DNA of 64,000 nucleotides from Methanoculleus sediminis (GTDB lineage: Archaea > Halobacteriota > Methanomicrobia > Methanomicrobiales > Methanoculleaceae): positions 452,133 through 516,132 of the forward strand of contig NZ_JXOJ01000001.1 in NCBI RefSeq assembly GCF_001017125.1. The letters run 5' to 3'. Made by a program: the position numbers and the translations under genes. The notes below the pieces were generated by a model that was given only the letters and a program-made list of their open reading frames with translations, was not told the DNA's origin and did no database searches. Below are positions 11,780 through 51,445 of the stretch, one piece after another (within the stretch, counting starts at the first letter, position 1; each line of letters opens with the position of its first letter).

Positions 11780-11784
11780 AAAAA
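11780..11784 (-). terminator. poly-T terminator of tRNA-Val
   Basis: Five A on the + strand give a U-run starting 5 nt after the tRNA 3' end. Confidence 0.45.
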
Positions 11785-11788
11785 GGAA

Positions 11789-11862: not shown

Positions 11863-12017
11863 CGTGGATGCCTTATAGTGTTTTGCACCGTGACGGATAA
11901 ACGTGTTGCCTGCTCCTGATTCCGGGGGCGTCGTGCGCGGCATCTCCTGTCCTTTGTGGCTCGTGCTCGCAGGGATGCTTTATTGGAATAGGCGGGAAGG
12001 AAGTTCGGACTCTGCAG

Positions 12018-29353: not shown

Positions 29354-30589
29354 TCAAAAGGTATCCGGAGCCTTCGGGGTTACCCCTTTCGAGACCCCCG
29401 CTGGCATACTCCCTTCCGCCTTCCCGGCAACCTTCGCGTAGAACGTCTCGATATCGCTGACGATCGCCTCCCAGTTGTACCTGGTCCGGACGAGTTCTTT
29501 CGCCCGTTCCCCGAACCCTGCCCGCAGTGTTTCGTCGGCAAGCAGGCGTCCGATGGCGGCGGCGAGCGCCTCCGGCGTGTACCCGGCATTGAACCCGACG
29601 GAGTTGTCGATCCACCCGAGCAGGTCCCCCTTGCCCGTCGTCACGATGGGTGTCCCGCAGAGGCACGCTTCGAGGAACGTGACCGGAAAGCCGGTGAAAC
29701 TCGGCGTCACGAAGACGTCGGCGTCGGTGTATGCGGCCATCTTGTCCTCCTTGCTCACGAACCCCGTGAAGACCACCCGGTCGTCGAGACCGAGCGACCC
29801 GACCCGCTGCCTGAACTCGTCGTTGTGGCCCATGTCCCCCCCAACCAGCATGAGAACGGCGTCGTCGAACTCCCGCGCGACCACGGCAAACGAGCGGATC
29901 AGAAGATCGATCCCCTTCGTCGGGTCGAGTCTCCCGAGGTAGAGCACGACCTTCGCGGCGTCGTCGATCCCCCATGCCGCACGGAACCTGCCGCGGGCGG
30001 GAAGGTCGGGGTACTCGGCGAGGTCGATGCCGTTCGGGACGATCGCGACCTTCTCATCGGTGACACCCAGCTCGCGATACCGCTCCGCTTCCGTCTCGTT
30101 GAGCGCGATAACCCCCGCGGCGCCGAGGATCACCTTCTCCGACCAGAACCGGTCGAAGAGCCGCTTCATCCGCGCAGAGCCCGTATCCTGCGGGAGCGCC
30201 CCGTGCGCCTGGAGCACGTAGGGCACGCCGTACTTCCTCGCGTAGTGGGAGGCGATGACGGTGAGCATGGTGCGGTGGTCGTGGATGTGGACCAGGTCGA
30301 ACCCGGCAATCTCCCTTCTTGCGACCGCCGGCATCCGGTAGGGCATCACCGGCAGGGCCGCCCCACGGGCGTATCTCCGTAAGTTCTCAAAATAATAGAC
30401 GTTCATCCCGTCGACGGTGGTGGCGCGGTTCGTTGGAAGGTCGTTTGGGTAGATGCTGCGGTTCGTCGTGTAGACGGTGATGTCGTGCCCGTTCTCGTGC
30501 AGGGTCCGGGAGATGTCGTATGCAACCCGTGCCACTCCGCCCGACTCCCAGAGCGGTTTGAAAAACGGGCTCACCTGCAGGATCTTCAT
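29354..30589 (-). CDS. glycosyltransferase, GT4 family
   Basis: A 411-residue GT-B enzyme. The start MKILQVSPFFKPLWESGGVARVAYDISR, the loop DLVHIHDHRTMLTV, the donor-site VLYLGRLDPTKGIDLLIRSF and the E-x7-E-like PSFTGFPVTFLEACLCGTPIVTTGKG are typical of GT4. ATG 30589 overlaps the stop of the upstream CapA-like gene (ATGA, 30589-30586), so the two are translationally coupled. A longer frame upstream of this start is only the antisense-phase of the CapA gene. Confidence 0.9.
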   Translation of the reverse strand: MKILQVSPFFKPLWESGGVARVAYDISRTLHENGHDITVYTTNRSIYPNDLPTNRATTVDGMNVYYFENLRRYARGAALPVMPYRMPAVARREIAGFDLVHIHDHRTMLTVIASHYARKYGVPYVLQAHGALPQDTGSARMKRLFDRFWSEKVILGAAGVIALNETEAERYRELGVTDEKVAIVPNGIDLAEYPDLPARGRFRAAWGIDDAAKVVLYLGRLDPTKGIDLLIRSFAVVAREFDDAVLMLVGGDMGHNDEFRQRVGSLGLDDRVVFTGFVSKEDKMAAYTDADVFVTPSFTGFPVTFLEACLCGTPIVTTGKGDLLGWIDNSVGFNAGYTPEALAAAIGRLLADETLRAGFGERAKELVRTRYNWEAIVSDIETFYAKVAGKAEGSMPAGVSKGVTPKAPDTF

Positions 30590-31668
30590 GCCCGCCCCCC
30601 GATGCTGCGTTCTCTGAGCCGCTTCCTGATCAGGCCCGCGTAGCAGTTCAGGCAGAACGGCGTAAAAAGCCAGACCCCGCACTCGACCAGGGGTGCAAGC
30701 CCGTGCTGCCGGATCCGGTAACGGTAACTCTCCAGGTTGTACTCCAGGTAGTCCGCGCCGATCTGCTCGAACCACCACTGGCGGGTGACGTTCCCGTTGC
30801 GCACCCTCTCGGAACACTTCGCTATCCAGCGCTCCACCAGTTCCCTGGTTCGCCCCTCCGCCACCTCGGGCTGGAAGTCGCTGTTGATGACGCAGGGAAT
30901 GGTCGTGTAGTCCCGGATGCCGTCCCGGTCGAAATCCACCGAGAGGATCATGGAACTGTTGATCTGCTCCTTGAAGATCTCGGTATCGAACTGGAAATTT
31001 CCGAGAGAATAGGCGATCAGGCCGTCTTTGTACCGTTCCAGCCCCTGGATGGTATGCGAGTGGTGTCCGAGGATCAGGGTCGCCCCGTTGTCGATGAAGG
31101 CGTGAGCGAGTCTGACCTGGTCGGGCGAGGGGTAGTAGGTGTTCTCGATCCCCCAGTGCAGGGAGACGACGACATGGTCGCACCGGTCCTTCAGTGCCCT
31201 GATCTCTTCGATGACGGCCTTTTTCTTCAGTTTGGCTACGGTGACGCCCGGTGGCGACCGGAACCTTCCGCTCGTGTATGCGAGAAAACCGAACCTGATA
31301 CCGTTCTGCTCGACGACCAGCCCTTCTGTCGGATCGTCGCCCCGCCCCCCTCCGACGTAGGCGATACCGCGGGCCTCGAGACCCTCGAGGGTGTTCTCAA
31401 AACCTTCCCTGCCCATATCCAGCGTGTGGTTGTTCGCCACGCTGAGGATATCGAACCCGGCTTCTTTGAGGAACTCACCCGCCTCCGGAGGGGTTGTGTT
31501 GACCCAGCGTTTCCTGCTCTCGGTTCCGCTCTTGGAGAGAACCGTCTCCAGGTTCCCGAAGAGCAGGTCTTTCCGCCGGAGTTCATGTTGGACCCGGGCA
31601 AAAGGTCTCTTGCCGTTCCTGATCCAGAGCAGCACGTCTCCGACCGCTCGCAGTCGCACCGATGTCAT
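30586..31668 (-). CDS. CapA-like metallophosphoesterase-fold protein
   Basis: A 360-residue member of the CapA/PgsA family (bacterial capsule and poly-gamma-glutamate synthesis). Visible motifs: AVGDVLL (8-14), GNLET (38-42), ILSVANNHTLDMG (74-86), VVSLHWGIENTYYPSPDQV and the metal-site ILGHHSHTIQG, then IAYSLGNFQFD. The domain is followed by a C-terminal extension of about 100 residues. No signal peptide is seen. Coupled to the GT4 gene by a 4-nt overlap, it likely acts in surface polymer synthesis. ATG 31668, with AGGAGAAGAGG directly upstream, replaces a longer frame. Confidence 0.85.
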   Translation of the reverse strand: MTSVRLRAVGDVLLWIRNGKRPFARVQHELRRKDLLFGNLETVLSKSGTESRKRWVNTTPPEAGEFLKEAGFDILSVANNHTLDMGREGFENTLEGLEARGIAYVGGGRGDDPTEGLVVEQNGIRFGFLAYTSGRFRSPPGVTVAKLKKKAVIEEIRALKDRCDHVVVSLHWGIENTYYPSPDQVRLAHAFIDNGATLILGHHSHTIQGLERYKDGLIAYSLGNFQFDTEIFKEQINSSMILSVDFDRDGIRDYTTIPCVINSDFQPEVAEGRTRELVERWIAKCSERVRNGNVTRQWWFEQIGADYLEYNLESYRYRIRQHGLAPLVECGVWLFTPFCLNCYAGLIRKRLRERSIGGRA

Positions 31669-32758
31669 ACCTCTTCTCCTGCAGAATCTCTGCTCGGGAC
31701 GGGAGATCCGGGCCTGCGGCCTGCCTTCATCGTCGATCTGAAGATCCCCACCCCCTTGAACCGTAGCGGTGGAACCCCGTTGACGTCTGCGAGAGAAGCT
31801 TCCATGTACGGGTAATCGTGAATACTGCCTTCCCTCCCCGATGCGTTGAGTTCCAGACAGGCGATGCGACAATATATATTTTGCCCTGATTATGCCCCCG
31901 GCATGCGTATCTCGACGCATACGGCTTCCCGAGAACCCCGGAACCCCGGCGGGGCGGGGGGCGGTTCCGGTAGCGGTGGAACTCGTGATGCCGAACCATT
32001 AACTGCTCATGCACCGAGTATGTACCTGGATCGCCAGGCGGCAGATGATGAGAGTTACCCCCACTGATCCGGTGATGAAGCAGGGGGCTGATGCCGCCAT
32101 CCTGTGGGGGAGGTCCATGCGCCGGGCACCGATTTTTTGCACCTTTGCTCCCGGTCGTGCTGTGCGTCTCCTCGATCGGCCGTAACCGTTTCCTTCACGA
32201 AGATGTCGTGCGGGTGCGATCGTCATTAACAGCAAACAGGCGGTTATGGGTTTCGGCGCTACTCGGTCCCTCCGGATTTTGCAGCAAAGCAGCCGTTTCG
32301 AGACGGGCTCTCCTCTCGATTCGTCATATTTTCTGGTCAATTCGTCAACCTCGATGCTGGCGAACCGGGTGCCGGCACCCGTACGGGTCTTCGCCGCGGG
32401 AATGTATATATATCAGCAGCCGCATGGCAGACCCAGCGTGGTGTGATGGGACCGAGCAACTCCTCGGATCCGCTCCCGATCCTTCCTTCCGGCGTCCCGC
32501 CCGTTCGGAGGGGTTCCCGGGAGGTACTGCGATGGAGGGTTTCACGTGCACTGGCCAGAATCTATTCTTCCCGTTGCGGCCGGGGTTTCCGCCGGTGCGG
32601 AGATGACGGCTCTCGGGTTCTTTCTCCCCGCCGGCGGCAACTCCCCGCCGGCGCACGGTATCGGCAGGAGCAGGGATGATACGGCCGGTCGTGCTACGGA
32701 TGCACGCGGGACGCAGCCTGAAGGGTACGCGCGGCCCCCCTCTTCCGGCGGAGCGCTC
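31669..32758. other. long gene-free divergent region with three TATA-like boxes
   Basis: About 1.1 kb without a convincing gene. ACAATATATATTTTG at 31868-31882 suits the minus-strand CapA promoter (leader about 180 nt). TATATATA at 32405-32412 would start + transcription near 32435, leaving a leader of about 320 nt before the GT2 start. Open frames in this stretch have no recognisable protein character. Confidence 0.5.
32405..32412 (+). promoter_or_regulatory. TATA box, probable promoter of the GT2 gene
   Basis: TATATATA in an otherwise GC-rich stretch. It implies an unusually long leader of about 320 nt. Confidence 0.4.
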
Positions 32759-33712
32759 ATGGGAGGATCGAGCGGCGGGACGGGTGATCCGGCAATCCCC
32801 GGGAGAGAACTCCCCCCGTTCGCGGTTGTCGCGCCTGCATACAACGAAGGCCTCGTTATCGGCTCCATCGTTCTTCAGGCGAAGAGGCACGCCGAGCGGG
32901 TGATCGTCGTCGACGACGGTTCGATCGACCGGACCGCCGAGACCGCCCGGCTTGCCGGTGCCGACGTCATCAGGCTGCCCGAGAACGCCGGCAAGGCGAA
33001 AGCGATGATGGTCGGGTTTGCCCGGGCCCGCGAGCTCGGCTACGACGCCGTCGTGATGCTCGACGGCGACGGCCAGCACGACCCGGGCGAGATCCCGGTC
33101 GTAGCGGCGCCGGTGCTTGCCGGCGAGGCCGATCTGGTCATCGGCTCCCGGTTCCTGAACACCCGGGCCGAGATCCCCGCCTACCGGCGGGCCGGGCAGG
33201 TGGTGCTCACCGGGTTCACGAACATCTCGGTGGACGGCGGCGGCTTCGCGACGACGGATTCGCAGTCGGGCTTCCGGGCTCTCTCCCGGCGGGCCCTCGA
33301 GAACCTCACCTTCGCGTCGGAGGGGTACAACATCGAATCCGACATGATCGCTCACTTCGCCTCTCTCAACCTCCGGGTGACCGAGGTCCCGATCTCCGTC
33401 ACCTACGACGTCCCCCACAAGCACAAGAAGAACCCGCTCTCCCACGGCTTCGGCGTGCTCGCCCGGATAGTGGGGCTGATCGGGTATAAGCGGCCGCTCC
33501 TCTTCTTCGGAATACCCGGAGGATCTATCGCGCTCTTCGGGATCGCTCTTGAGATCTACACCTTCTCCGAGCTCTACCGGATCGGCCAGTTTCATTACGT
33601 CATATTTACGTTAGGGATAACCGCACTCATTCTCGGGCTGCTGCTGGTCTCGTCCGGACTGGTCCTCAACTTCCTGGTATCGATGCTAGAGCGGCGGGCG
33701 GGTGAAACGTAG
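32759..33712 (+). CDS. glycosyltransferase GT2, dolichol-phosphate-sugar-synthase-like, with two membrane helices
   Basis: A 317-residue inverting GT-A enzyme: FAVVAPAYNEGLVIGSIVLQA (about 20-40), IVVDDGSIDRTAETA, the DxD site VMLDGDGQHDP and a QSGFRALSRRAL acceptor motif. Two C-terminal helices follow (about 240-262 and 278-302, IFTLGITALILGLLLVSSGLVL), which anchor it. The form suggests transfer of a sugar to a polyprenyl phosphate or membrane lipid, which could feed the GT-C-like enzymes here (inference). ATG 32759 (with GGAG upstream) is preferred; a GTG at 32546 would add a low-quality Gly/Pro-rich extension. Confidence 0.86.
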   Translation: MGGSSGGTGDPAIPGRELPPFAVVAPAYNEGLVIGSIVLQAKRHAERVIVVDDGSIDRTAETARLAGADVIRLPENAGKAKAMMVGFARARELGYDAVVMLDGDGQHDPGEIPVVAAPVLAGEADLVIGSRFLNTRAEIPAYRRAGQVVLTGFTNISVDGGGFATTDSQSGFRALSRRALENLTFASEGYNIESDMIAHFASLNLRVTEVPISVTYDVPHKHKKNPLSHGFGVLARIVGLIGYKRPLLFFGIPGGSIALFGIALEIYTFSELYRIGQFHYVIFTLGITALILGLLLVSSGLVLNFLVSMLERRAGET

Positions 33713-33989: not shown

Positions 33990-34202
33990 CCGGACCCTGA
34001 GAACGGCCGGCGCAATCTCTTCTCACGCATCGCTGTAACCGGACCGGACTCGTGCGTATCGTATATAACACCTGCGGCTGCCCGGGCGGATCAGGGAGGG
34101 CCTGCAATCGTTCCCTGCCCCTTTCGCGTGCGCTCTGCAGGTTGACCGGGTCTGATTGGGCCGGCAGCGCCCGGTGGCGATCCGACGGTTGGCCGGGCAA
34201 AG

Positions 34203-34208
34203 TATATC
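34203..34208 (+). promoter_or_regulatory. TATA box of flippase gene 2 (leaderless)
   Basis: AGTATATCAT is centred about 29 nt before ATG 34235. No Shine-Dalgarno precedes the ATG. Confidence 0.5.
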
Positions 34209-34234
34209 ATGGGTGTAGGCGACGCGAAGGTTCC

Positions 34235-35725
34235 ATGGCGAGTTTTCTCGGCAACATCTTCAAACTGACGACGGGCACCATGATCGCCCAGGTGACCGGC
34301 ATCATCCTCATCCCCGTGATTACACGGCTCTACTCGCCGGAATTCTTCGGAGTCAACCAGCTCTTCCTCTCCATCGCAACGGTGGCCGTGGTCGTCTCTT
34401 CTCTCTCGTACGATTATACCATCATGCTGCCGAAGACGGACGAAGACTCGATAAACGCGTTTGCCCTCTGCACCGTCTGCATACTGGGGGTGTCCGCCGC
34501 AATCGGGGCCGTCTTCATCGGGTTCGGGGACTGGTTCGGTGCTTTCTTCGAAACCCCGATGATAGCCGAATACTTCGTATGGCTGCCGGTATTCGTCGTC
34601 TTCAGCAGCCTCTTTGCAATCCTGAACGAATGGCTCTCGCGGAAGGTGCAGTACGGCGTTCTCTCCAGAGGCATCGTCGTGAATTCGATCTCCACCCGGA
34701 TGGTCCAGATCGGGGGCGGGCTGGTCGCTCCCTCGCCCCTGGGACTCATCCTCGGTTCGGTGGCAGGCATGACCTTCGCCGTTCTCTACATGCTCCGGGG
34801 GCTGACGCAGGATATCGAACTCTTGAAGGCCGTCAGGGTAAAGCGGATGAAGGAGATTGCCGTCCGGTACAGGGATTTCGCGCTCTACGGTTCCGCCGGA
34901 GGCCTTGCAAACAGCCTGTCCTGGGAACTGCCGGCGTTCATGCTTGCCTACTTCTTCAACCCCGCGATTCTCGGATACTACGCCCTTGCCATGATGGCGG
35001 TGAGGCTGCCCATGGGGATGGTAGGAACGGCGATCTCGCAGGTGTTTTACCAGAAGGCGAGTGAGGAGAAGAACCGCACAGGGAGCGTCAAAAGCGTTGT
35101 CCGGGAGATCCACACGAGACTCATCTCCATCGGCATTTTTCCCTTCGTTATATTCACCATCCTCGCCGAGGATCTCTTCTCCTTCGTCTTCGGTGCGGAC
35201 TGGCTCACGGCGGGCACGTATGCGATGCTCCTTGCTCCCTGGATCTTCACGGTCTTCATATTCTCACCTATCTCATCCCTGTTCGGAGTTCTCGAACGGC
35301 AGAGGAGTTTTCTCTCGTTTGAGATCCTGACCCTCCTTACATGGGCGACCATCTTCTACATCGGCGGCATCACCGGAAATCCCGTCTCCACGCTTGTCCT
35401 CTTTTCAATCGGCGGCACGCTCATATGGGGGTCGAAGGCTGCATACCTCGTACGGGTATCCGGGGCCGGATACCGGGACAGCACGATCAGCCTGATCCGG
35501 CACCTGACGGTCAGCATCGTCATCTCCGTGCCCCTGATCATCGGCAAGTTCCTGGACCTCCCGCTCATCATCCTGCTCGGGATTGCGGGGATGACCGCGA
35601 TCGCCTACTATCTCCTGCTCTTCTTCACCGATACCCTGGTCCGCAGGGAGCTCATGGGGATGGTTCAGGGACTGATCCCTGCAAAACACCTCGATTGGAT
35701 GGAGCGGCTGGGCCTGTTCCGGTGA
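34235..35725 (+). CDS. polysaccharide flippase, second copy (Wzx-like)
   Basis: A 496-residue protein with about 14 membrane segments. The N-terminus GNIFKLTTGTMIAQVTGIILIPVITRLYSPEFFGVNQLF is typical of O-antigen flippases (R-L-Y-S-P-E-x-F-G). It differs clearly in sequence and length from the 413-residue flippase at 22.0 kb, so the two probably export different glycans. Neighbouring genes on the opposite strand encode a deacetylase, FemAB-like enzymes and GT4 enzymes that could build its cargo. The start is fixed by the TATA box. Confidence 0.88.
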   Translation: MASFLGNIFKLTTGTMIAQVTGIILIPVITRLYSPEFFGVNQLFLSIATVAVVVSSLSYDYTIMLPKTDEDSINAFALCTVCILGVSAAIGAVFIGFGDWFGAFFETPMIAEYFVWLPVFVVFSSLFAILNEWLSRKVQYGVLSRGIVVNSISTRMVQIGGGLVAPSPLGLILGSVAGMTFAVLYMLRGLTQDIELLKAVRVKRMKEIAVRYRDFALYGSAGGLANSLSWELPAFMLAYFFNPAILGYYALAMMAVRLPMGMVGTAISQVFYQKASEEKNRTGSVKSVVREIHTRLISIGIFPFVIFTILAEDLFSFVFGADWLTAGTYAMLLAPWIFTVFIFSPISSLFGVLERQRSFLSFEILTLLTWATIFYIGGITGNPVSTLVLFSIGGTLIWGSKAAYLVRVSGAGYRDSTISLIRHLTVSIVISVPLIIGKFLDLPLIILLGIAGMTAIAYYLLLFFTDTLVRRELMGMVQGLIPAKHLDWMERLGLFR

Positions 35726-35751: not shown

Positions 35752-36840
35752 TCACGGCCCGGGGGGCGGGCGCATCCGCCCTTTCCCCCACCATGCCGCG
35801 ATCTCATGGCCGCCGGTCATCCAGGCGCCCTTCTCATGACCATACTCAAGGATTTTCCGGTAAAACCTGAGCGGATCGCCGGTCATGAACTCGTTGTGCC
35901 AGAGGACGGTGATCACGCCGTGATACCGCTCGACCGCCTCAAGGAGGCGCTTCATCCGGTTCCAGGCCCGCTCCGGGTTCAGGCGCATGTGCAGAAGCAG
36001 CGTCCGGTCCATCACCACGAGCGGGATCTCCAGGATCGCCATCTCTCTCCCGCGATCAAGGTCGAACGGCCGGAACGGGTGGCACATGCCGTTCCTGAAC
36101 CCGATGCAGTCAGGATACCCGAGGGTGGTGTCGTAGAGGAAACCCGCTCTCTCCAGCAGTTCCCAGGTCTCCGGGACGCGGAACCTGAGGTAATGACTTC
36201 TATACCCGGTTACTTTCCGGTCAAGAATGCTCTCCAGATACCGTTTCTCTTTCACCAGGCCGTCGAAGTCGCGGTAGGCTTCGCATCCGCCGTGCAGGCC
36301 GACTTCCCATCCCCTATCCCGGAGTGCGGAGATCTCCTGCTCCAGGTCTTCAACCGGGTAGGCGTGCTCCCGTGCCCCCTTTTCCAGTGCCAGAACGTAG
36401 AAGGCGGATCGCGCGCCGTATGACTCCTCGAGTCCGGTGATCTCCTCGAAAGTCTGTTTCCGGCACTTTCCGGGACTCAGCTCTCTGATGATGCTTCCTG
36501 CATGGAGGAGCCTCTTTGCTCTGAGCGCTTTTACGATCTCAAGCCCACTGACGTGGAGGGGCCGATAGACGGTGTCGACGTCGTGAGAGAGGCAGATTGC
36601 AAACGGCTGGGATTCGGGGTATTCGCAGGAAAAACCGTTCTCCACCAGGATCTGCGATGCCCGGGGCACGAATACGTCACGATGGCGGCTCTGGTAGTAC
36701 GGAAACCGGTCGAATCGGTCGCGGTCGGACTCCTCGTACTCCTCCTTTCGGGTGAACAGGTCCCATACCTCTCTATCCTGCCTGAGCAGATCCATCATGT
36801 CCGGAACGGCCTCTTCCCCTGCATACCGGGGTAAGAGCAT
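35752..36840 (-). CDS. polysaccharide-deacetylase-like protein (CE4/NodB fold)
   Basis: A 362-residue protein. The metal-binding motif 1 appears as AICLSHDVDTVY (about 81-92; SHDVD in place of TFDD) and motif 2 as GLHGGCEAYRD (about 179-189), followed by GYRSHYLRFR (motif 3, about 210) and VLWHNEFM near the end. Such enzymes remove N-acetyl groups from amino sugars or related groups. No signal peptide, so it would act inside the cell on a precursor. It is the last gene of a run of seven co-oriented genes. ATGs at 36798 and 36795 are alternative starts. Confidence 0.82.
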   Translation of the reverse strand: MLLPRYAGEEAVPDMMDLLRQDREVWDLFTRKEEYEESDRDRFDRFPYYQSRHRDVFVPRASQILVENGFSCEYPESQPFAICLSHDVDTVYRPLHVSGLEIVKALRAKRLLHAGSIIRELSPGKCRKQTFEEITGLEESYGARSAFYVLALEKGAREHAYPVEDLEQEISALRDRGWEVGLHGGCEAYRDFDGLVKEKRYLESILDRKVTGYRSHYLRFRVPETWELLERAGFLYDTTLGYPDCIGFRNGMCHPFRPFDLDRGREMAILEIPLVVMDRTLLLHMRLNPERAWNRMKRLLEAVERYHGVITVLWHNEFMTGDPLRFYRKILEYGHEKGAWMTGGHEIAAWWGKGRMRPPPGP

Positions 36841-36886: not shown

Positions 36887-37900
36887 CTACCGGGCGCGGT
36901 TGTCCGGATACACGCCGTCCTTCAGCCGCTTGAGGATGCGATACCTGAACCGGGGATACTCGGCGCCATAGTAGGGGATAAGCCGGGGATTGAACCCGGA
37001 GATGAACGCACTGAGATGAGGGATGTTTCCTGCCATCAGGTTCAGCATCCTGTGATTCCGCTCTTTGAGCGAATTCACATTGTCGTAACAGAGGAGCGTC
37101 GCCGCCCCGGTGGAGAGGTGCTCCGGAGAGGCGGCGGCAAACAGGCTGTGAGCCATCTTCGCGTCCCACAGGGTGACTTCGGCAGCGGCAATCTCTCCAG
37201 AAGGCATGCTCGCAACCCGCATCTCACCGATCCCTTTCTCCCTGATGAGCTTCAGCATGCCTGTAAGATGCCTCTCGGTGACGGGTGGCTCTTTACCCTG
37301 CTTTGAGAACGTACGGATAAGAAGGTTCCAGAAAATGTCCGGGTCGAAGATCCTGGCCGAAGAAATGTCCAGTCTCCGGGCCTTGCGGATGTTCTGCCGC
37401 ACATCTTTTGATGCGGTCTTGAAGAGATCGTTATGCGTGGGCAGCACGTAGGTATAGTAGACCGCCGGGCTCCACCCCTGCTGCGTGAATGCCCGGATGT
37501 CCTCCAGGCCCGGAGCGTTCACCAGATCTACGTAGTCAAACCCCTGCCGGGTGATGTGCTCGAGTATCGCGGCGATGATCCGGTTGGTGTGCACCTCCTT
37601 TGTCCTCTGTTTTGCATCTCCTGTATCGGAGATCACCATCCCCCCGTATGGGGTCGATACCGCTTTCGAGGAAGCCACGTGGAGAAGGCGATAGGGGCGC
37701 GAGAGGTAGAGGGGGCAGCCACCGATCAACTCTTCGCCGTCGTAGCACCCGATAAGGATCAGGGTCTGATCCAGAAGGAGAGCGTTCTCCACCAGCCAGT
37801 CGCTCGTATGAAAGACAGTTCCCTGTGCCGACCCGGCGACCAGCGCATCCCACGCCTTGAATTCAGCACTCCCGAGTTCCCTCACTTCCGGCTGTCTCAT
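36887..37900 (-). CDS. FemAB/GNAT-fold acyltransferase, paralogue A
   Basis: A 337-residue protein of the FemAB / GNAT_acetyltransf_6 type. N-terminal half: GTVFHTSDWLVENALL and LIGCYDGEELIGGCPLYLS. Linker: KDVRQNIRKARRLDI, the site where FemAB proteins contact the donor. C-terminal half: GEIAAAEVTLWDAKMAHSLFAAASPEHLSTGA and LNLMAGNIPHLSAFISGFNP. In bacteria, such enzymes add amino acids to cell-wall precursors from aminoacyl-tRNA, or acylate sugars. A relative lies at 39.1 kb. ATG 37900, with GGAGG 9 nt upstream, gives the start aligned with that relative. Confidence 0.8.
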   Translation of the reverse strand: MRQPEVRELGSAEFKAWDALVAGSAQGTVFHTSDWLVENALLLDQTLILIGCYDGEELIGGCPLYLSRPYRLLHVASSKAVSTPYGGMVISDTGDAKQRTKEVHTNRIIAAILEHITRQGFDYVDLVNAPGLEDIRAFTQQGWSPAVYYTYVLPTHNDLFKTASKDVRQNIRKARRLDISSARIFDPDIFWNLLIRTFSKQGKEPPVTERHLTGMLKLIREKGIGEMRVASMPSGEIAAAEVTLWDAKMAHSLFAAASPEHLSTGAATLLCYDNVNSLKERNHRMLNLMAGNIPHLSAFISGFNPRLIPYYGAEYPRFRYRILKRLKDGVYPDNRAR

Positions 37901-37941
37901 ACCGGTAGACCCTCCGGCGTGCATACGGACACCTTATTCAC

Positions 37942-38937
37942 TTAAGCGTTTCGACTCGCCGGGATTAGTTTTTTTATCCTGTAGAGTATCTGCGTCGGTT
38001 TTGAGAACAGGACCAGCCTCGAATGGATCGGGACATGTTCCGCCCCGAGTTTTGCCTTGTCCCGGAAGCGGGGGTTGTCCGGGTCCGCTTTCTGCCGTCC
38101 CAGGGAGACCTTCTCGTAACCGTTCTCCCATGCCCAGTTGATCAGTTCCCAGTCCATGTAGTAAGTGGGGGTGTAATGCGGAAGGTCGCGGTTGAGAGCC
38201 AGGTATCCGAAATAAACCGTCTTTTTGACCGGATCCATGAATGCCGCCGACCCCCCGGCAACGGTGTCTCCTTTTGCCAGAACCGCAATTCTCAGGTAGT
38301 CCGGAGAGAAGTGATCCCAGAGTGTCTCAAAGAACGAGAGCGGCAGGGTCTCTCCGTTTATGTGCAACATGTTCTTCTCGTAATACCGGTAGAATAACCC
38401 GATATCGGACTTCCGATCGATCTCCTGCAACTCGAACCCCTCCCTCGGGAACCTGAGGATGCTCTTTGTCGTCTTTTTCGAAAGGGCACTCCATATGATC
38501 TCCGGGGGTTTTTTCTTCAGGTGCACTACCATATCCCCGGTCTCTCCACCGGAATAGGCGGCGTAGGTTATCCCGGAGAGAAGATTCGAACGGTAGGTAT
38601 TGAAGTGCAGGAACGAGTGATCTCTCGTGAACAGCGAGAGGAGATCGTTGAAACGGGCGGCATCGAATCCACCGTCCAGCACGATGTTGTTCGCGTCGGA
38701 TTGGGGGATGCTGATCAGTCCCCTGAAGTTCAACGCCGATTCTTCGGCCCAGGGACTTATCCCAACAACGTCCTCGCCGTCCAGGATGAGGTAATACTTC
38801 AGTTTCGGGTGGAGCGCATCCTCAAGAACCTGCTTCCACTTCAGGCTGTGGAAGAGTGTTCCTTCCGGGGAGCGGTTGTTGAATGCGTCCCATAAGTCGG
38901 CGTTATCCCTGGATAGCGGTTCGATTGCGTATGCCAT
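37942..38937 (-). CDS. FemAB/GNAT-fold acyltransferase, divergent paralogue B
   Basis: A 331-residue FemAB-like protein distinct from the pair flanking it: SPEGTLFHSLKWKQVLEDAL, YLILDGEDVVGISPW, LSKKTTKSILRFPREGFELQE, then DTVAGGSAAFMDPVKKTVYFGYLALNRDLPHYTPTYYMDWELINWA and YEKVSLGRQKADPDNPRFRDKAKLG. The last block is characteristic of FemAB-related proteins in exopolysaccharide loci. Likely substrate: an amino sugar or lipid-linked glycan. A strong TATA region (38957-38970) precedes it, so it may begin its own transcript. Confidence 0.8.
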   Translation of the reverse strand: MAYAIEPLSRDNADLWDAFNNRSPEGTLFHSLKWKQVLEDALHPKLKYYLILDGEDVVGISPWAEESALNFRGLISIPQSDANNIVLDGGFDAARFNDLLSLFTRDHSFLHFNTYRSNLLSGITYAAYSGGETGDMVVHLKKKPPEIIWSALSKKTTKSILRFPREGFELQEIDRKSDIGLFYRYYEKNMLHINGETLPLSFFETLWDHFSPDYLRIAVLAKGDTVAGGSAAFMDPVKKTVYFGYLALNRDLPHYTPTYYMDWELINWAWENGYEKVSLGRQKADPDNPRFRDKAKLGAEHVPIHSRLVLFSKPTQILYRIKKLIPASRNA

Positions 38938-38956
38938 GGAGACACACCTTTCGGAT

Positions 38957-38970
38957 ATAATATAATATAC
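38957..38970 (-). promoter_or_regulatory. TATA-rich promoter of FemAB paralogue B
   Basis: An AT-only stretch (TATATTATATTATA on the minus strand) is centred about 27 nt before ATG 38937. AAAGGTG lies between it and the ATG. Confidence 0.55.
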
Positions 38971-39107
38971 CTTCCACCGGCGAGGCCATCCGGATCGTCT
39001 TCACCCCCGGGTTCGTACGGGGTGGCCGGTGCGGGTGGACGCCGGAGCCCCGGCCGGAATCGGGGCTTGTGCACCGCACGCTCTTCGGCAATCGGCGAGG
39101 CCGGACC

Positions 39108-40166
39108 TCACCCCTCGAAAGACCGGTCGTTCCGGCATTGGGGTGCGGGGCGGGCGATCCGCGAGGCCATGCCCCGCATGCACCGGTTCACGCTTCTTAA
39201 GATGCCGTACCTGATGCCGGACGATTCGACGCCGTAGTACGGAACGAGATCCGGGTTGAAGGTTGCTATGAACGCGCTCAGGTTTGCCATATTCCCCGCC
39301 ATCAGGTTGATCGACGGATAGTTCCGCTCCGCGGCGTGCGCGATAACCTCGCCGAGAAGAAGCGAGGGCGCTCCGGTAGAGAGGTGCTCTTCCGCGGAGG
39401 CGGCGGACCAGCGATGAACTGTTTTCGCGTCGTAAACGACGACTTCGGCCGCAGCTATCTCCCCGGAAGGTGTCCTGGCGACCCACATCTCGCCGAGGTT
39501 CTTCTCCCGGATTACATCCAGCATACTGAAAAGGTGCTTTTTGGTGAAAGGGGGGCGGGCGTTCTGCTTCTCGAAGGTGTTCACGATGAGCATCCAGTAA
39601 GCCCCGGCATCGAAGTATTTCGCCGCCGTAATGCCCTGTTTTTCTGCCCTGTTGATGCTTCTCCGTGCGTTCTTTGAGATGCGGCTGAAGACATCGCCGT
39701 CGGTCGGCAGCACATACGTGTAGTAGACCTTTGCGTCCCATCCGTTCCGGGTGAACCATCGGATATCCTCAAACCACGGAGAATGAACCAGTTCTACGTG
39801 AGCGAACCTCATCCGGGCGATATGGCTGCAGACGGATGCGACGATTTTGTTGGCATGCAGCTCCCGCTCTCTTCGTTTCGTGCTCTCTATGCCGGACGTC
39901 ACGATCCCGCCGTAAGGGGCCAGCAGCGCTGCGGAAGAAGCCGTCCTGAGCAGTCCGTACGGGTTCGACAGGAGGAGCGGGCAACCCCCGATCAGATCCC
40001 CGTCTTCGTAGCACCCGAGTATCATCGGTGTCCGGTTCAGGGACGAGGCGGTCCTGACCAGCCAGTCGCTCGAATGAAAGATCGTTCCCTGGGGGGAGGC
40101 GGCGACCAGTTCGTCCCACGCAGGAAGTTCGTCGGCATGTAATCTCCTGACCTCTATTCGAACCAT
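39108..40166 (-). CDS. FemAB/GNAT-fold acyltransferase, paralogue C
   Basis: A 352-residue close relative of paralogue A. It shares GT(I/V)FH(S/T)SDWLV, GCYEDGDLIGGCPLLLSNPYGLLRTASS, APYGGIV(T/I)S, YYTYVLPT, PSGEIAAAEV and NLMAGN(M/I). Its linker, SKNARRSINRAEKQGITA, is the counterpart of the KDVRQNIRKARR segment. The duplication flanks paralogue B, making an A-B-C trio. ATG 40166 is preferred over GTG 40175. The C-terminal 30 residues are basic and poorly conserved. Confidence 0.8.
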   Translation of the reverse strand: MVRIEVRRLHADELPAWDELVAASPQGTIFHSSDWLVRTASSLNRTPMILGCYEDGDLIGGCPLLLSNPYGLLRTASSAALLAPYGGIVTSGIESTKRRERELHANKIVASVCSHIARMRFAHVELVHSPWFEDIRWFTRNGWDAKVYYTYVLPTDGDVFSRISKNARRSINRAEKQGITAAKYFDAGAYWMLIVNTFEKQNARPPFTKKHLFSMLDVIREKNLGEMWVARTPSGEIAAAEVVVYDAKTVHRWSAASAEEHLSTGAPSLLLGEVIAHAAERNYPSINLMAGNMANLSAFIATFNPDLVPYYGVESSGIRYGILRSVNRCMRGMASRIARPAPQCRNDRSFEG

Positions 40167-40209
40167 TTGCAACACCCGGATTGGAGAGGCACCTTAATCG
40201 ACACCGGCA

Positions 40210-41403
40210 TTAACACTTTCCGTCCAGCACCGCAGTATACAATTCAATATACCGGCACGCTACGGACTCCCAGGTATAGGCGGCGCTCAGTTCCCTTGCG
40301 GCCCTCATATGCCGTGCCAGGTCTTCGGGATTGCCGAGCAGATCGAGAACCGCCTTTATGATGACCTCGTTCTCATCCGATCGGTCGAAGAGCAGCGAAC
40401 AATCCTTCAGTTGTTCGGCATGATCGACGTCCGCCCTGACGATGGGGACCGTGCCGCACGCCAGGTACTCGAAGATCTTGTTGGGCGAGGTCTTCACCCA
40501 GTATTTCGCGTCCGGCCTCACGAGGAGGAAGCCGACATGTGCCTTCTCGGTGAGTTCGACGGTCTTCTCCCAGGGAACGTAGCCGAGGAACCGGAACCTG
40601 CCGTTATGTTTTCCGGCAAGATCGTCGAGCTTCACTCTCGAATCGTTGTCGAGCGAGGTTCCGCCGACGAAGAAGGTCACGTTCTCAAACGACCGGATGG
40701 CCGCATCCGCAATCTCGAGGAGGAGGTCGACGTCCCGATCGGCCAGGTTATTGAGGCTCCCGATATAGACTGCGTGCATCTGCGCCCCCGGCTCGACCCG
40801 GCGAATCTTTGCATCTATCGCATCCGGATCGTAAGCCGCGGATGCCGCATAGTTTGGAACCGCTATAACGCGGGCTCCCGGAAACAACTTCCCGACCGCG
40901 TCAAGATGGCGCTCCGAGACGACGACCGTTCCGGATATCCATCTCTTTGCACGGTCTTCGTAAAAGACCGGTATGGAGATCCGCCCGAAATGGAGCCATT
41001 CCTCGTAGACCTCGTGCCTGTCGTAGACCACCCTGGAGTTTCTCATGCCGTTTCTCACCAGCATCGCGGCCAGCGGCAGCAGCAGGGGGTCGTGCACATG
41101 GAGAACCGACGGCCGTCCCGGATCGATATCGAGAGCTTCGAGCGCTCTGCGGCACCCGGCCAGTATCTTCGGCCTTAAACAGTACCCCATGAACGACAGT
41201 GTCCTGGCTTTTCCCCGCAGAGGCAGATGGTTGATCCTGAATCCCCTCACGTTGTTCCGGGAGAAGATCCCCGGCTTTGCGGACTCGTCCGTGTAGTTGT
41301 AGTGTATCCGGCAGACGTTCACCCCCCTGTCCGAGAGATAGGTGATGTGCCTTGCGATTCGCACATCTTCCACCGGGTGTGCGTCAAGAACGATGACATC
41401 CAT
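40210..41403 (-). CDS. glycosyltransferase, GT4 family
   Basis: A 397-residue GT-B enzyme beginning MDVIVLDAHPVEDVRIARHI, with LHVHDPLLLPLAAML, VYDRHEVYEEWLHFG, AVYIGSLNNLADRD and a donor-site SPNKIFEYLACGTVPIVRADVDHAEQL. The EYLACG element replaces the classical E-x7-E glycine loop, as in several polysaccharide GT4 enzymes. ATG 41427 is a possible alternative start. It sits 43 nt from the FemAB paralogue C gene. Confidence 0.86.
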   Translation of the reverse strand: MDVIVLDAHPVEDVRIARHITYLSDRGVNVCRIHYNYTDESAKPGIFSRNNVRGFRINHLPLRGKARTLSFMGYCLRPKILAGCRRALEALDIDPGRPSVLHVHDPLLLPLAAMLVRNGMRNSRVVYDRHEVYEEWLHFGRISIPVFYEDRAKRWISGTVVVSERHLDAVGKLFPGARVIAVPNYAASAAYDPDAIDAKIRRVEPGAQMHAVYIGSLNNLADRDVDLLLEIADAAIRSFENVTFFVGGTSLDNDSRVKLDDLAGKHNGRFRFLGYVPWEKTVELTEKAHVGFLLVRPDAKYWVKTSPNKIFEYLACGTVPIVRADVDHAEQLKDCSLLFDRSDENEVIIKAVLDLLGNPEDLARHMRAARELSAAYTWESVACRYIELYTAVLDGKC

Positions 41404-41444
41404 ACGGGCACCTGCCGGTAGTGACATCCCGATCCGGTTTATAA

Positions 41445-42659
41445 CTAACGACCTCCGCGTGGATTGCGATATTCCAGGTATCCGGCGCCTGTTCTTGCAC
41501 CGGCGGGAAGAGTCCGGGCAGGGGACACACCGTCATCCGGATCGCCGGCGATCAGTTGTTCGAAGATGCGCACGTATCTCCCCGAAAGAACCTCCCAGTC
41601 CAGTGTCTCCACGGCGTACCTTCTTGCATTCGCCGCATGATCCGGATGCTCCTCGCCGAGGTAGCGGAGAATCTCATCGCCGGCGCGTTCGGCATCCTCG
41701 AAATCGATTGTTATCCCGGCATCCGCGTCTTTCACCATCGCGAGGTTGGGGATGCCGGAGACGATGCACGGCAGTCCCGAGGCCATCGCTTCCGCAAGAG
41801 TGAGGGGGGGCATTCCCCCCTCGTACTTCGAGGCCATGATGTAGTAATCGGCGCAGGCATAGAGATCGGGGAGGTCCCGTGAGTGGTTCACGTTCCCGAG
41901 GAAGAGGACGTTCTGCAGTCCCTGTCTCCGTGCCAGAGCCTTTGCGGATTCCAGGAGTTCGCCCCCGCCGGCGATGCAGAGGGTCACGTCCCGGCATTTC
42001 CTCTCGAGGTATGAGAAGGCTTCGAGCATGGCAAACGGTCGTTTTGCGGGAGTCAGCCGTCCGACGCTCAGGAGGAGAACGCCCTCGTCCGGGATGCCGA
42101 ACCTCTCCCGGATACCTGCTTTATCACAAGATGGACGGAACCGCCGGACGTCGACCCCGTTCGGGATGTAGGATATCCTCTCCCGTGCGACCCCGAGCCG
42201 GGCCAGTTCCTCGCGAACCGGTTGCCCTACCCCGGTGAAGAGGGTGGCGGGGGGCATACGGGTCAGGCAGGTGCGCTCGATACGGGCAACGACCGACTCG
42301 TACAGGTGAATGGGGAGGTCCCCTACTTTCCGGGCGCTCGATCCGGAGTAGGTCGAGTGCATCGTCACCAGGCAGCGTTCGAACGGATTTCCGGTGACGA
42401 TAAAGGGGTTCTGGAGCCATGCCGCATCGTAGTCGTTGTCTTTGAAATGCCGCGAGACCCGGTACCAGTAGTTGAGCAGCCCGACAACGCCCGCCCTCTC
42501 GATCAGCGGCCAGTTGCCAAGCCTGATATCCGGGCCTTTCGGAGAACAGACCGTACACTCGACGCCTTTCTCTTTGAGTCGCTCTACGATGTTGTACACC
42601 ACGTTGGCGATGCCCGCGCCGTGGGGGAAATACTCCGTTGTGCAGACGAGCAGCCTCAT
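41445..42659 (-). CDS. glycosyltransferase, GT4 family
   Basis: A 404-residue GT-B enzyme. It shows LLVCTTEYFPHGAGIANVVYNIVERLKEKG, the acceptor-half TMHSTYSGSSARK, then ISYIPNGVDVRRFRPS, LLLSVGRLTPAKRPFAMLEAF and the donor E-x7-E region YYIMASKYEGGMPPLTLAEAMASGLPCIVSG. The PEGMPLT-type loop (here EGGMPPLT) is standard. It stands in the same run as the two neighbouring GT4 genes, suggesting sequential sugar additions. Confidence 0.9.
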   Translation of the reverse strand: MRLLVCTTEYFPHGAGIANVVYNIVERLKEKGVECTVCSPKGPDIRLGNWPLIERAGVVGLLNYWYRVSRHFKDNDYDAAWLQNPFIVTGNPFERCLVTMHSTYSGSSARKVGDLPIHLYESVVARIERTCLTRMPPATLFTGVGQPVREELARLGVARERISYIPNGVDVRRFRPSCDKAGIRERFGIPDEGVLLLSVGRLTPAKRPFAMLEAFSYLERKCRDVTLCIAGGGELLESAKALARRQGLQNVLFLGNVNHSRDLPDLYACADYYIMASKYEGGMPPLTLAEAMASGLPCIVSGIPNLAMVKDADAGITIDFEDAERAGDEILRYLGEEHPDHAANARRYAVETLDWEVLSGRYVRIFEQLIAGDPDDGVSPARTLPAGARTGAGYLEYRNPRGGR

Positions 42660-42771: not shown

Positions 42772-43923
42772 TCATAACCTCACCTGGCCGTATACATCCA
42801 CGATCTCCCTGCTGATGTTCTCCCATGTGTATCGTTCCGAAAATGCGCGAATCGTCTGCCCGTCCCAATCTCTGTCCAGCGCCTCCAGGATCGCCCCGGC
42901 CAGGCCGCCGGGATCGGCGGGATCGACCAGCAGACCGTACTCGTCGGAAGTGATGACCTCGGGCACCCCGCCGACGCTCGTCCCCACGAAAGGCTTCCCG
43001 CACCCGAAGGCTTCGAACATGACCGTCGGGTTGCCTTCGCTGAGACTCGGCAGAACGAAGAGGTCGCAGGCGTTCAACCAGACGGGGATATCGTCGTGCG
43101 GCTTCCCGCCGACGAGCACGACGTAATCCTCGAGACCGAGCGAGCGAATCCGGTTCTCAAGCGTTCCATGAAGCCTTCCCGAGCCGACTATCACGCACAG
43201 GATGTCTCTTCGCTCATTCACGACCTCCGACATCGCTTCGATGAGATAGTCGTGCCCCTTGACCGCGCCGTACAATCTCCCGACGTTCAGGATCACCTTT
43301 TTGTCGGAGGGCAGACCCAGCCTCTTCCGGCACTCCCCGGTATCCATGGGGCGGAACTTTTTGCCATCGTAACCGTTTGGAATCGTGACGACGCTTCGAG
43401 GCGCGGTCGACGCGTAACGGCGTACCGGCGCGTTGTTGCGAAGCGCGATATGCCGGGCATCCGCTTCAGAGAGAGCCACGGTCTTATCGACGGAGTCCAG
43501 GATGACTCCCTTTGCGCTCTTCTCATAGAGCCGCACGCATACGTCCTTCATGGGCTCGCCGAACATCAACTGGCCGTGATGCGTGAGAACCAGGGGGATC
43601 TTACAGAACTTCTTCAACAGGGGAAAGGTGAGAGCGGTGAAGCTGTAGAGATTATGGATGTGGATGACGTCGAATTTTTTGAGTTCGTTTAAGAGAAAGA
43701 ATATGGACGGAACAAGAGGGTTTCGCAACGGTTCTCCGATGCATCTCAGTCTTCTGACGAGAATTCCGTCCATGACTTCGAGCGGCCGGCCCTCGGGGAC
43801 GTTTGCAGTTATCACCTCTACCATATGACCGTCGTCGATCAGGCTTTTGCTCAGGTTGTAGACGTACATCTCCATCCCGCCGTTATGCGGTAGAAAATAG
43901 GGCGTTATCTGGGCAACCTTCAT
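42772..43923 (-). CDS. glycosyltransferase, GT4 family
   Basis: A 383-residue GT-B enzyme and the first gene of the 43.9 to 35.8 kb run. Motifs: AQITPYFLPHNGGMEMYVYNLSKSL, DVIHIHNLYSFTAL, LVLTHHGQLMFGEPMKDV, VTIPNGYDGKKF, VILNVGRLYGAVKGHDYLIEAM and LFVLPSLSEGNPTVMFEAFGCGKPFVGTSVGG. The HHGQ element is common in enzymes that glycosylate lipid-linked oligosaccharides. About 110 nt separate it from the next GT4 gene. Confidence 0.9.
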   Translation of the reverse strand: MKVAQITPYFLPHNGGMEMYVYNLSKSLIDDGHMVEVITANVPEGRPLEVMDGILVRRLRCIGEPLRNPLVPSIFFLLNELKKFDVIHIHNLYSFTALTFPLLKKFCKIPLVLTHHGQLMFGEPMKDVCVRLYEKSAKGVILDSVDKTVALSEADARHIALRNNAPVRRYASTAPRSVVTIPNGYDGKKFRPMDTGECRKRLGLPSDKKVILNVGRLYGAVKGHDYLIEAMSEVVNERRDILCVIVGSGRLHGTLENRIRSLGLEDYVVLVGGKPHDDIPVWLNACDLFVLPSLSEGNPTVMFEAFGCGKPFVGTSVGGVPEVITSDEYGLLVDPADPGGLAGAILEALDRDWDGQTIRAFSERYTWENISREIVDVYGQVRL

Positions 43924-44653: not shown

Positions 44654-46588
44654 TCATTGGGGGAGACGATACACTTCGACGCCGTTGTTTGAGTAAACCC
44701 TGTCCGTTGCGGATAGCCTGCCGGTGACGTTTCGAATATTCCGCTCCGTGGGCAGGTAGGCCTGAAGGGTGTCTTCCGGATCGAACTCGGTCTCGTCTAT
44801 CGCAGCCTCCTGCCCGAAGAGCAACCCGCCGTGCCGGAGCTGGTTGCTCGGGAGAACGATATAGCCCCCTTCTCCCTCCGGCAGATCCAGATCGGTCCTT
44901 AGCAGGTAAATGGTGTAGTACGGCAGTCCCAGACGTTCGGAATCGGGTATCTCTTTTCGCTCGAAGAACCGCAGCGTATAGTAGTCCGAGTGCAACGGCG
45001 ACCCGCTCGGCACCGTCTCCAGCACATGTTCGAACCCGGTCATCTCGTTCTGGTTGAACGAGTAGCGGATGTAGCCCGCCTCTTCCCCGAGAAACCCGAG
45101 GGTTGCGATGCCGTAGAGAACAATCAGCACGACGAGAACAGCCCCGACCCGTCCCGGCGACATGTTCATGGCGATGAGGTATCGGGCGAGGATGTATATG
45201 CCGACACCCGTTGCCACGGCAAGAATCGGCAGAAACAGGATCGCAAACCGGTCGATCCGGAGTATCGAAACCGCCTGGAAGATCACCGTAAGGACGCCCG
45301 GCACATTCAGGATGATCGCCATCAACCCCGTTATGCCGAAGACGATCGAGTACTTCGGCTGCTGCTTCCATATGAGATAGACCGCCCCGATCAACGAGAA
45401 AAACACGACAAAGAGAGTATCGACCTGGTTGAGCAGAAACGTCCAGCCCTCATGCACCGCCTCGGTGAGGACGATGTTCTGATACAGGGACAGATCTGCG
45501 CGTGGGAAGAGATCGTCTATGAACGGGTAGGCTATGAAGAGCCAGTACCAGGCGAGCAGGGAGACGGCAACCATCAGGAAGGCCGGACTGATGTACCTTC
45601 GCTCACCGGCAACCCGTTCGAGGAGAAATAAGATCCCGAGCAGGATGATGATCATGGGCATGGAGACCTGATGCGTCAGGAGGATAAAGACGACCGCAAC
45701 CACGGCAAGGCCCCTCCTCGCGACCGGCCTCGTGACCGCACTCCCTGCTCCGGCTTTCGCACCGCCCATCGAATAGAGCAGGTAGAGGAGGATGAGAAAC
45801 CCGACATATGCCATGGTTCTCGTCACCATATAGGTGCCGTAGTATATGACGTCGGCATTCACCACATAGAAAAGAGCGACCAGAAGGGCGATCTGCTCGT
45901 TTTTGAATACGTAGTTGACCAGCAGGTACAGGAACAGAACCGTCGAGGAGAATACGAGACCGGTGACGACGAAGAGGGAGGTCTGGAGATCCAGGCCGAG
46001 CATGTGCGAAGATACGGCTACAAACACGTGGTACAGGGGAAAGTAGGTGTATGTCCCGAGTTCGCCCGGGATAACATGTCCCGACAGATAGGTGATGGTG
46101 GCCATATACCCGTGCGGCATGATATCGGTCGTCCCGAAGTACAGGGCCGGCCGCAGGGTGTAACTGTAGATCGTGGCCACCAGGGTGAGCATGATTTCAA
46201 AGAGCACCACTGCCGGCCCTGGCCGTGAAGACAGTATCTGGATGAGGATTACGGCGTACAGGAAGGGCACCGTGAGCAGGCCCCACCCGGAATCGGCCGG
46301 TGTCAGAAGAAGGGCCGGGATGGTGAGCGTGTACAGTATCAGGAAGAGTTTCAGGGATGCCGAAGGGTTGTACGAAAAGAACACCGGCCGGGCCGCGAGA
46401 TCGATATCCTCTCGTTTAATTGCCAGGAATGCAAACGATCCGATGATCGCCGGGATCGCCAGGATCGAACCGTCGATAAGGTAACTTACCCTGTCGATCA
46501 GGATGCAGAGGATACAGCCTGCGATATAGGTGGACAACACCAGGTACGGGAACACATCTGCGAGTTTCTCGAGCAATCGATTTTTCAT
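44654..46588 (-). CDS. large polytopic membrane protein, putative GT-C glycosyltransferase
   Basis: A 644-residue protein with about 14 membrane segments and a C-terminal extracytoplasmic tail (about 535-644). The first large loop contains YFGTTDIMPHGYMATITYLSGHV; an Asp in this position is the expected metal-binding residue of GT-C enzymes and recalls the corresponding loop of the protein at 23.3 kb. Later comes the repeated sequence of hydrophobic helices with few charges. Not closely similar overall to the 23.3 kb protein. Likely role: transfer of sugar from a polyprenyl carrier. ATG 46588 is preferred over TTG 46633. Confidence 0.68.
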   Translation of the reverse strand: MKNRLLEKLADVFPYLVLSTYIAGCILCILIDRVSYLIDGSILAIPAIIGSFAFLAIKREDIDLAARPVFFSYNPSASLKLFLILYTLTIPALLLTPADSGWGLLTVPFLYAVILIQILSSRPGPAVVLFEIMLTLVATIYSYTLRPALYFGTTDIMPHGYMATITYLSGHVIPGELGTYTYFPLYHVFVAVSSHMLGLDLQTSLFVVTGLVFSSTVLFLYLLVNYVFKNEQIALLVALFYVVNADVIYYGTYMVTRTMAYVGFLILLYLLYSMGGAKAGAGSAVTRPVARRGLAVVAVVFILLTHQVSMPMIIILLGILFLLERVAGERRYISPAFLMVAVSLLAWYWLFIAYPFIDDLFPRADLSLYQNIVLTEAVHEGWTFLLNQVDTLFVVFFSLIGAVYLIWKQQPKYSIVFGITGLMAIILNVPGVLTVIFQAVSILRIDRFAILFLPILAVATGVGIYILARYLIAMNMSPGRVGAVLVVLIVLYGIATLGFLGEEAGYIRYSFNQNEMTGFEHVLETVPSGSPLHSDYYTLRFFERKEIPDSERLGLPYYTIYLLRTDLDLPEGEGGYIVLPSNQLRHGGLLFGQEAAIDETEFDPEDTLQAYLPTERNIRNVTGRLSATDRVYSNNGVEVYRLPQ

Positions 46589-46762
46589 TCCGGACCCTGC
46601 CCCCACCCATGACGCCCCTCGTTCGCTGCTCAACCCTAATAAAGGTGAGCTTGCTGTCTCCGGTGAATCGGGAATGCCGGTGTTCCGCCCCCTTCTCCGC
46701 GGAGTGCGGCGATATCGGCATGCCCCCGGTTCAGGGACAGAGCGGGGTGCTCTCGCGGCGGT

Positions 46763-50801: not shown

Positions 50802-51445
50802 GCGTAATCTCCTAGAGCCGCCTCGGGAGGACCCCTTCTGGCCTCCCGGCAAGCAGGTGAGGGTGGATCCCTCAAAATTAATTTATTACTCTGATATATA
50901 TACTAATTGGTCTTTAAAACACTCAAAATATGCCTTAATAAAGCCATTGTTGATTATAATCTCACAAATTCCAATTAACTCTAATTAAAAATATTGTTGC
51001 TTCGATAGATAAAATTATATATGAAATTCTTATTTTAGTGTCCCCCCTCCTCTGCGGGTTGATGGCGCGATGCGCTCTCCCGCGAGAATGCGAGCGCGGA
51101 TGTTGAGGTTAAACCGGTCCTTTGCGCGATCCATACTCTCTGTGCACACTACGAACTTCGGTTGCAGCCGGCGGGCAGGTGCTCAATTCGATGCCCCCGG
51201 CGCCGCCGGCGTCGGGACAACGTGATCCGGCGCGCAGGGGGAGGCACCGCACCAGATCCGTGATTACGCTCGCGGTGAGATGAAAAATAGCCGTAAAGCC
51301 GGGAGATGCGTCCTCTTACTGGGCGCAGACGTCTGCATACGATAGAGTTTCCGTAACCCGGTGCCCCCGGATCGATGATCACTGGACTGCCGCACCGGTT
51401 CGCAAAAATCCCGGCAACCCGTAACGATGCCGTGCAACGCCCCGG
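50802..51445. other. gene-free region, AT-rich promoter half and GC-rich half
   Basis: 50860-51040 is very AT-rich and contains the promoter at 50895-50903. From 51045 the sequence is GC-rich; open frames there show no protein character. No repeat unit of the CGCGAAG type is present. Confidence 0.5.
50895..50903 (-). promoter_or_regulatory. TATA box of the family 2 CARDB gene
   Basis: GTATATATAT on the minus strand, about 98 nt before ATG 50801. It predicts a leader of about 70 nt that ends in AGGAGA. Confidence 0.5.

Follow-up and report, generated by a model that had tools for sequence, protein, structure and literature searches.

The window analysed here, a 64,000-nucleotide stretch of the Methanoculleus sediminis genome (assembly GCF_001017125.1, contig NZ_JXOJ01000001.1, positions 452,133–516,132 of the forward strand), contains three genes for FemAB-fold proteins, designated A, B and C, close to the gene of a deacetylase resembling VimE. 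On balance, this locus appears to follow, in an archaeon, the logic of the bacterial VimE–VimA step: amines exposed by the deacetylase would be N-acylated, and probably aminoacylated, to become part of a surface glycan. The computations show that the models of A and B have the FemX fold, that the deacetylase resembles VimE, that deacetylase and FemAB genes are paired in a conserved way, that Wbp-type genes stand next to some related pairs, and that a lysine equivalent to FemX Lys305 is present in B but not in A or C. If the proposal is true, the aminoacylation of sugar amines known from bacteria (peptidoglycan cross-links and the linking sugar of the Wbp/Vim pathway) also occurs widely among archaea devoid of peptidoglycan, and the chemistry of the surface glycans of methanogens gains a point at which it can be tested. 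A search of the open-access literature found no report of an archaeal FemAB function in glycan aminoacylation.

The FemAB-fold genes are located on the minus strand where the first-pass annotation had placed them, at 39108..40175 (A, 355 amino acids), 37942..38937 (B, 331 amino acids) and 36887..37924 (C, 345 amino acids) in window coordinates, which are used throughout. Gene A has a GTG start codon; the earlier annotation took it from an internal ATG at 40166. The deacetylase gene (35752..36840, minus strand, 362 amino acids) is located downstream of the trio, and three minus-strand genes matching glycosyltransferases in a family library are located upstream of it: a GT4-type gene at 40210..41427 and GT4 genes at 41445..42659 and 42772..43923. 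The trio, the deacetylase gene and the three GT4 genes do form one co-oriented run, as had been noted. The reported closeness of A to C and divergence of B are also borne out: A and C share 52% identity over a stretch of 327 residues, and B can be aligned with either of them only in short stretches.

All three proteins pass the Pfam model PF13480 (3.1e-12 for A, 9.2e-9 for B and 7.7e-10 for C). The FemAB model PF02388 is matched below its gathering score of 24 bits by A (23.4) and B (17.3) and is not matched by C; the scores with the XrtA/PEP-CTERM FemAB model TIGR03019 (B 67.8, A 41.1 and C 22.3 bits) are all far under the cut-off of 260.35. The structures of A and B were modelled with AlphaFold2 (mean predicted local distance difference test score, pLDDT, of 86.8 and 75.7, respectively) and compared with solved structures using VIA-align. 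Both models have a tandem GNAT architecture, and both domains align to FemX of Weissella viridescens, so the loss of both GNAT domains that would speak against the earlier assignment is not seen. For the A model, the Z scores are 26.3 with Sbb17 and 26.0 with FemX (1ne9, over 295 residues); for the B model, the Z scores with FemX are 21.9–22.1 (1ne9 over 291 residues). A profile built from the relatives of B also matches FemX by sequence (3.4e-12, profile positions 16–280), and B is the member of the trio closest to both FemX and TIGR03019. Neither A nor a profile of A gave a meaningful match in sequence searches against solved structures, and the fold evidence for A therefore comes from its model. 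Protein C is predicted to be a FemX-type tandem-GNAT protein through its 52% identity to A and its match to PF13480. The FemX of W. viridescens is dependent on tRNA, though its 335 amino acids form a simple double-GNAT protein. The absence of a FemA-type coiled coil from the models of A and B, which were inspected for a tRNA-binding coiled coil as the first-pass annotation had proposed, thus does not count against aminoacylation.

It is possible, though rather unlikely, that the FemABs re-acylate the freed amine with a group other than an amino acid, such as formyl, hydroxyacyl or acetyl, supplied by an acyl-CoA or an acyl adenylate. The folds of A and B argue against this, being clearly closer to the aminoacyl-tRNA-dependent FemX, Sbb17 and Sba18 than to tandem GNATs using acyl-CoA. 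With the A model, MprF (the next class) and the acyl-CoA tandem GNATs reach a Z score of 19.1 at most, and with the B model no structure outside the FemX/FemA/Sbb17/Sba18 group exceeds 15.4. A motif scan found the acetyl-CoA motif [QR]xxGx[GA] in neither A nor B, and no gene for an acyl ligase was noted among the run of genes in the window. A non-amino-acid group would, however, agree with the lack of the FemX lysine in A and C, with two [QR]xxGx[GA] strings of doubtful meaning in C, and with the two PaaK-like AMP-forming ligases adjoining a second FemAB trio of the host.

This second trio is encoded on contig C8 (634803-638284; L014:9804-13285), next to the two ligase genes, a CapA-type gene and a gene for a thiamine pyrophosphate enzyme. 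Together with the three proteins of the window, its members account for the six PF13480 proteins of the host genome. The proteins of the second trio keep the FemX lysine, and genes related to them are found in many genomes of the family; for one of them (L014:12257-13285), a sequence search yielded no match in the PDB.

The role of Lys305 of W. viridescens FemX has been described, and the equivalent Lys329 of DhpH-C is reported to be essential (PMC12945691). FemX is not part of the FemAB alignment made here, and its Lys305 was matched to K294 of B and I303 of A by the F-K-x-x-F surroundings. In the alignment of all the FemABs gathered, K294 and I303 share one column, where C also has isoleucine. 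The lysine is invariant in the B family (27/27 rows); in the clade of A and C, the column contains I, V, L, A, T or Y. In the phylogenetic tree, B is located across the midpoint root from A and C. The rows lacking the lysine group with two F-bearing rows in a supported set of 37 (98/92), and the loss of the lysine consequently looks old. A and C belong to sister groups, both of which include members of other genera of the family; the duplication that gave rise to them thus seems older than the genus. Having kept the lysine, B is the strongest candidate for an aminoacyl-tRNA transferase of the FemX kind, and A and C must employ lysine-independent chemistry, use another donor or give non-catalytic help. 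The lysine-less clade is a natural test of how far transferases of the FemX fold need the catalytic lysine.

One form that such help could take is that of lysine-less companions, with A and C serving as a scaffold or as tRNA- or sugar-binding partners and B as the only catalytic protein. The variable column in the A/C clade, set against the invariant lysine of all B relatives, fits this arrangement, as does the presence of A-type genes in all 17 of the 17 FemB-bearing genomes. It is nevertheless unlikely: the clade retains a strongly conserved motif around the lost lysine (NLM.GN...LS.F...FNP.LVPYYG), and in six neighbourhoods (L187, L189, L190, L191, L197 and L210) a lysine-less FemAB is the only FemAB detected beside the deacetylase, no lysine-bearing partner having been found nearby. 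FemX, FemA and FemB act in turn on peptidoglycan, and the trio might similarly act in turn and build a short peptide branch on a surface sugar, with A and C using variant chemistry. This is quite unlikely; the hints for it are the second FemAB trio of the host and three FemABs near the deacetylase in locus L206, which belongs to another family.

The best NCBIfam match of the deacetylase is the VimE model NF053580 (2.5e-29, 102.1 bits, residues 28–330). The XrtA polysaccharide deacetylase model gives 19.6 bits, and a Pfam scan found no deacetylase family, returning only DUF7033 below its cut-off. Judging by these matches, the protein can be described as VimE-like and not as a VimE equivalog. 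Residues H86, D87, D89, H183, H216 and H315 are invariant in all 17 of the 17 aligned rows, and CE4-like roles can be suggested for them by analogy; among solved structures, there is no relative close enough for the roles of these histidine and aspartate residues to be assigned. A simple hydropathy scan detected neither a signal peptide nor a membrane segment. The deacetylase is probably cytoplasmic, since no hydrophobic segment reaches the usual threshold. Another reading, a generic polysaccharide deacetylase that works on a polymer after its export, was considered and rejected, given the lack of a signal peptide or membrane segment in the hydropathy scan together with the best match to VimE.

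The association of the deacetylase with FemABs is conserved. In a sample of 40 genomes of the host's GTDB family, host included, FemB-like genes (E below 1e-60) occur in 17; FemA-like genes are found in all 17 of these, and a close relative of the deacetylase in 16. The FemA-like, FemB-like and deacetylase genes share one locus of up to 20 kb. Using the profile of B relatives, 13 loci were found in named genomes, 12 of them in methanogens or other euryarchaea (six in Methanoculleus) and one in a flavobacterium. Of 246 genomes of the phylum searched with the VimE model, 65 contained the deacetylase, and 45 deacetylase neighbourhoods, all outside the main clusters, were fetched. A FemAB-like gene is present in 19 of the 45 and directly adjoins the deacetylase gene in 15, from seven families. 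In 12 of the 15 adjacent pairs, the open reading frames overlap on the same strand, the start codons having been chosen mechanically. When FemAB genes were placed at random within the same 19 regions, the mean number of adjacent pairs was 5.5 and the maximum 12, and 15 was reached in none of 5000 trials; these counts make chance neighbours unlikely. Since neighbourhoods within a family are not independent, the claim of pairing rests on the seven families and not on the permutation figure. PF13480 is matched independently by 19 of 20 FemAB proteins chosen from these neighbourhoods.

The two kinds of enzyme might still be mere neighbours in a glycan cluster, acting on different sugars, and the free amine left by the deacetylase would then be the end product. 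In favour of this, glycan clusters are rich in genes and show shuffling, many deacetylase neighbourhoods contain no FemAB, and in genome G031 the deacetylase is present with neither FemA nor FemB detected. The recurrence of overlapping deacetylase–FemAB reading frames in several families, in excess of random placement within the same clusters, makes this very unlikely. Some neighbourhoods without a detected FemAB also have an ATP-grasp gene directly beside the VimE-like deacetylase gene (6339-7457 in L188, L214:8463-9638 and L223:3484-4620), which fits a repeated need for re-acylation; the ATP-grasp enzyme is possibly an alternative re-acylating enzyme.

Two further features of related loci concern the deacetylase. 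In five sister loci (L107:11690-13561, and also L108, L109, L110 and L116), a gene for a protein of about 590–670 amino acids is located between the deacetylase gene and the FemAB genes. It was considered as an amidotransferase of the WbpS kind and rejected, having matched C45_proenzyme (5e-17, below the cut-off) and no Pfam family; C45_proenzyme is an autoproteolytic acyltransferase/hydrolase. In loci L118 and L119 (genomes G004 and G005), deacetylase fragments are located beside a FemA-like gene and a longer copy is present at another place within the locus, a pattern suggestive of ongoing reshuffling of the cluster.

The genes next to related deacetylases suggest a candidate sugar. In L188 (family f6), the deacetylase gene is accompanied by genes for a NeuD-type acetyltransferase, a PseC-type aminotransferase, a UDP-GlcNAc 3-dehydrogenase, an NDP-sugar dehydrogenase and WecB. 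By sequence family, these are of the WbpD/E/B/A/I type, the set expected of a Wbp pathway to a sugar of the UDP-2,3-diamino-uronic acid type. Members of the same sequence clusters flank the deacetylase and a FemAB in L189, and the deacetylase and three FemABs in L206. In the host, genes for a UDP-GlcNAc 3-dehydrogenase, an NDP-sugar dehydrogenase and WecB stand in a row on contig C10, followed further along by a long deacetylase-like gene and then an ATP-grasp gene (L015:8649-9800); a NeuD-type acetyltransferase and a PseC-type aminotransferase are encoded on contig C8 beside GlmS and AglB. With Wbp-type sets near related pairs and candidates in the host, a di-amino uronic acid is a reasonable candidate for the substrate.

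Among the closest known systems is the Wbp/Vim pathway of Porphyromonas gingivalis and Tannerella forsythia, for which it has been proposed that VimE takes an acetyl group off a di-amino uronic acid and that VimA transfers serine or glycine (PMC7468200). The evidence is mass-spectrometric and from complementation, and swapping vimA swapped the amino acid; VimA also matches TIGR03019, whose systems contain a deacetylase and glycosyltransferases (PMC7468200). The locus studied here shares with this pathway a VimE-like deacetylase, FemAB-like transferases and glycosyltransferases, with Wbp-type genes in the host and beside related pairs, and the same chemistry is proposed for it; it differs in having three FemABs instead of one, in the lack of the FemX lysine in A and C, and in its archaeal host. 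W. viridescens FemX resembles the trio in being a tandem GNAT over the whole protein, with no coiled coil and with Lys305 equivalent to K294 of B. Its acceptor, UDP-N-acetylmuramoyl-pentapeptide, is however not expected in an archaeon; the identity is about 15%, Lys36, the residue changed in the K36M mutant, is aligned to leucine in B, and Lys305 has no counterpart in A and C. The likeness to XrtA/PEP-CTERM FemABs consists in the TIGR03019 matches of all three proteins, though far under the cut-off. For HfsK, a FemAB-like protein of holdfast synthesis in Caulobacter, it has been suggested that the targets are amines freed by a deacetylase (PMC5362036), but HfsK is a c-di-GMP effector in a bacterium. 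The N-glycan of Methanococcus voltae contains an N-acetylmannosaminuronic acid (ManNAcA) that carries threonine at position 6 and neighbours GlcNAc3NAcA, a diacetamido uronic acid (PMC2952790). A diacetamido uronic acid and an amino acid thus occur together in this surface glycan of an archaeon too, but its threonine is attached at position 6 of another sugar, by an enzyme unknown at the time of that review, whereas a ring-amine link is proposed here.

In the proposed mechanism, the cytoplasmic VimE-like deacetylase would take an N-acetyl group off an amino sugar; the probable substrate is a Wbp-type 2,3-diacetamido uronic acid still attached to a nucleotide or lipid carrier. The amine set free would next be acylated by the FemX-fold proteins A, B and C, amino acids being the most likely acyl groups, and the GT4 enzymes would build a surface glycan bearing N-acyl (aminoacyl) groups. 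Acylation would precede export of the glycan, which the neighbouring flippase may carry out. The suggestion of the first-pass annotation that the deacetylated amine is re-acylated with amino acids or other acyl groups is partly upheld. Deacetylation followed by re-acylation is favoured by the best match to VimE, the overlapping gene pairs across families, the Wbp-type runs and the bacterial precedent (PMC7468200), and N-acylation by the FemABs is fairly well supported. We infer the substrate, the order of steps and the surface location of the glycan, as well as the identity of the acyl group as an amino acid and of its donor as tRNA; the last two are the least certain parts of the proposal.

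Several observations weigh against this mechanism. The score of the deacetylase is far under the equivalog cut-off of VimE (102.1 versus 440 bits). PF13480 proteins are diverse, and a FemX fold is no proof of an aminoacyl donor; A and C have no equivalent of Lys305. The models of A and B are built on shallow alignments (20 and 21 sequences; pLDDT of 75.7 for B). Of the 45 neighbourhoods, 26 showed no FemAB close to the deacetylase. The window yielded no Wbp-type genes; the host candidates for each step are divided between two other loci, and the NeuD- and PseC-type matches of the host do not fix the sugar.

The flippase that would export the glycan is of the Polysacc_synt type and is encoded on the opposite (plus) strand at 34052..35725; of the 16 sister loci that were fetched (L105–L120), 15 contain a homologue. 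A 659-residue polytopic membrane protein without a Pfam match, encoded at 44654..46633 on the minus strand upstream of the GT4 genes, also recurs in sister loci. A CapA/PGA_cap family protein (30586..31920, minus strand) and a predicted GT2-type glycosyltransferase (32546..33712, plus strand), the latter labelled by inspection alone, belong to the same syntenic block. Elsewhere in the window, positions 52735-54282 encode a beta-ribofuranosylaminobenzene 5'-phosphate (beta-RFAP) synthase fused to an N-terminal stretch matching chorismate lyase. The gene product of 48624-50852 contains, as read from its sequence, two near-identical repeat units with Thr/Pro-rich linkers between them. At 10001-12000, the G+C content drops to 0.41, compared with about 0.62 around it; this region adjoins a tRNA-Val gene (11789-11862).

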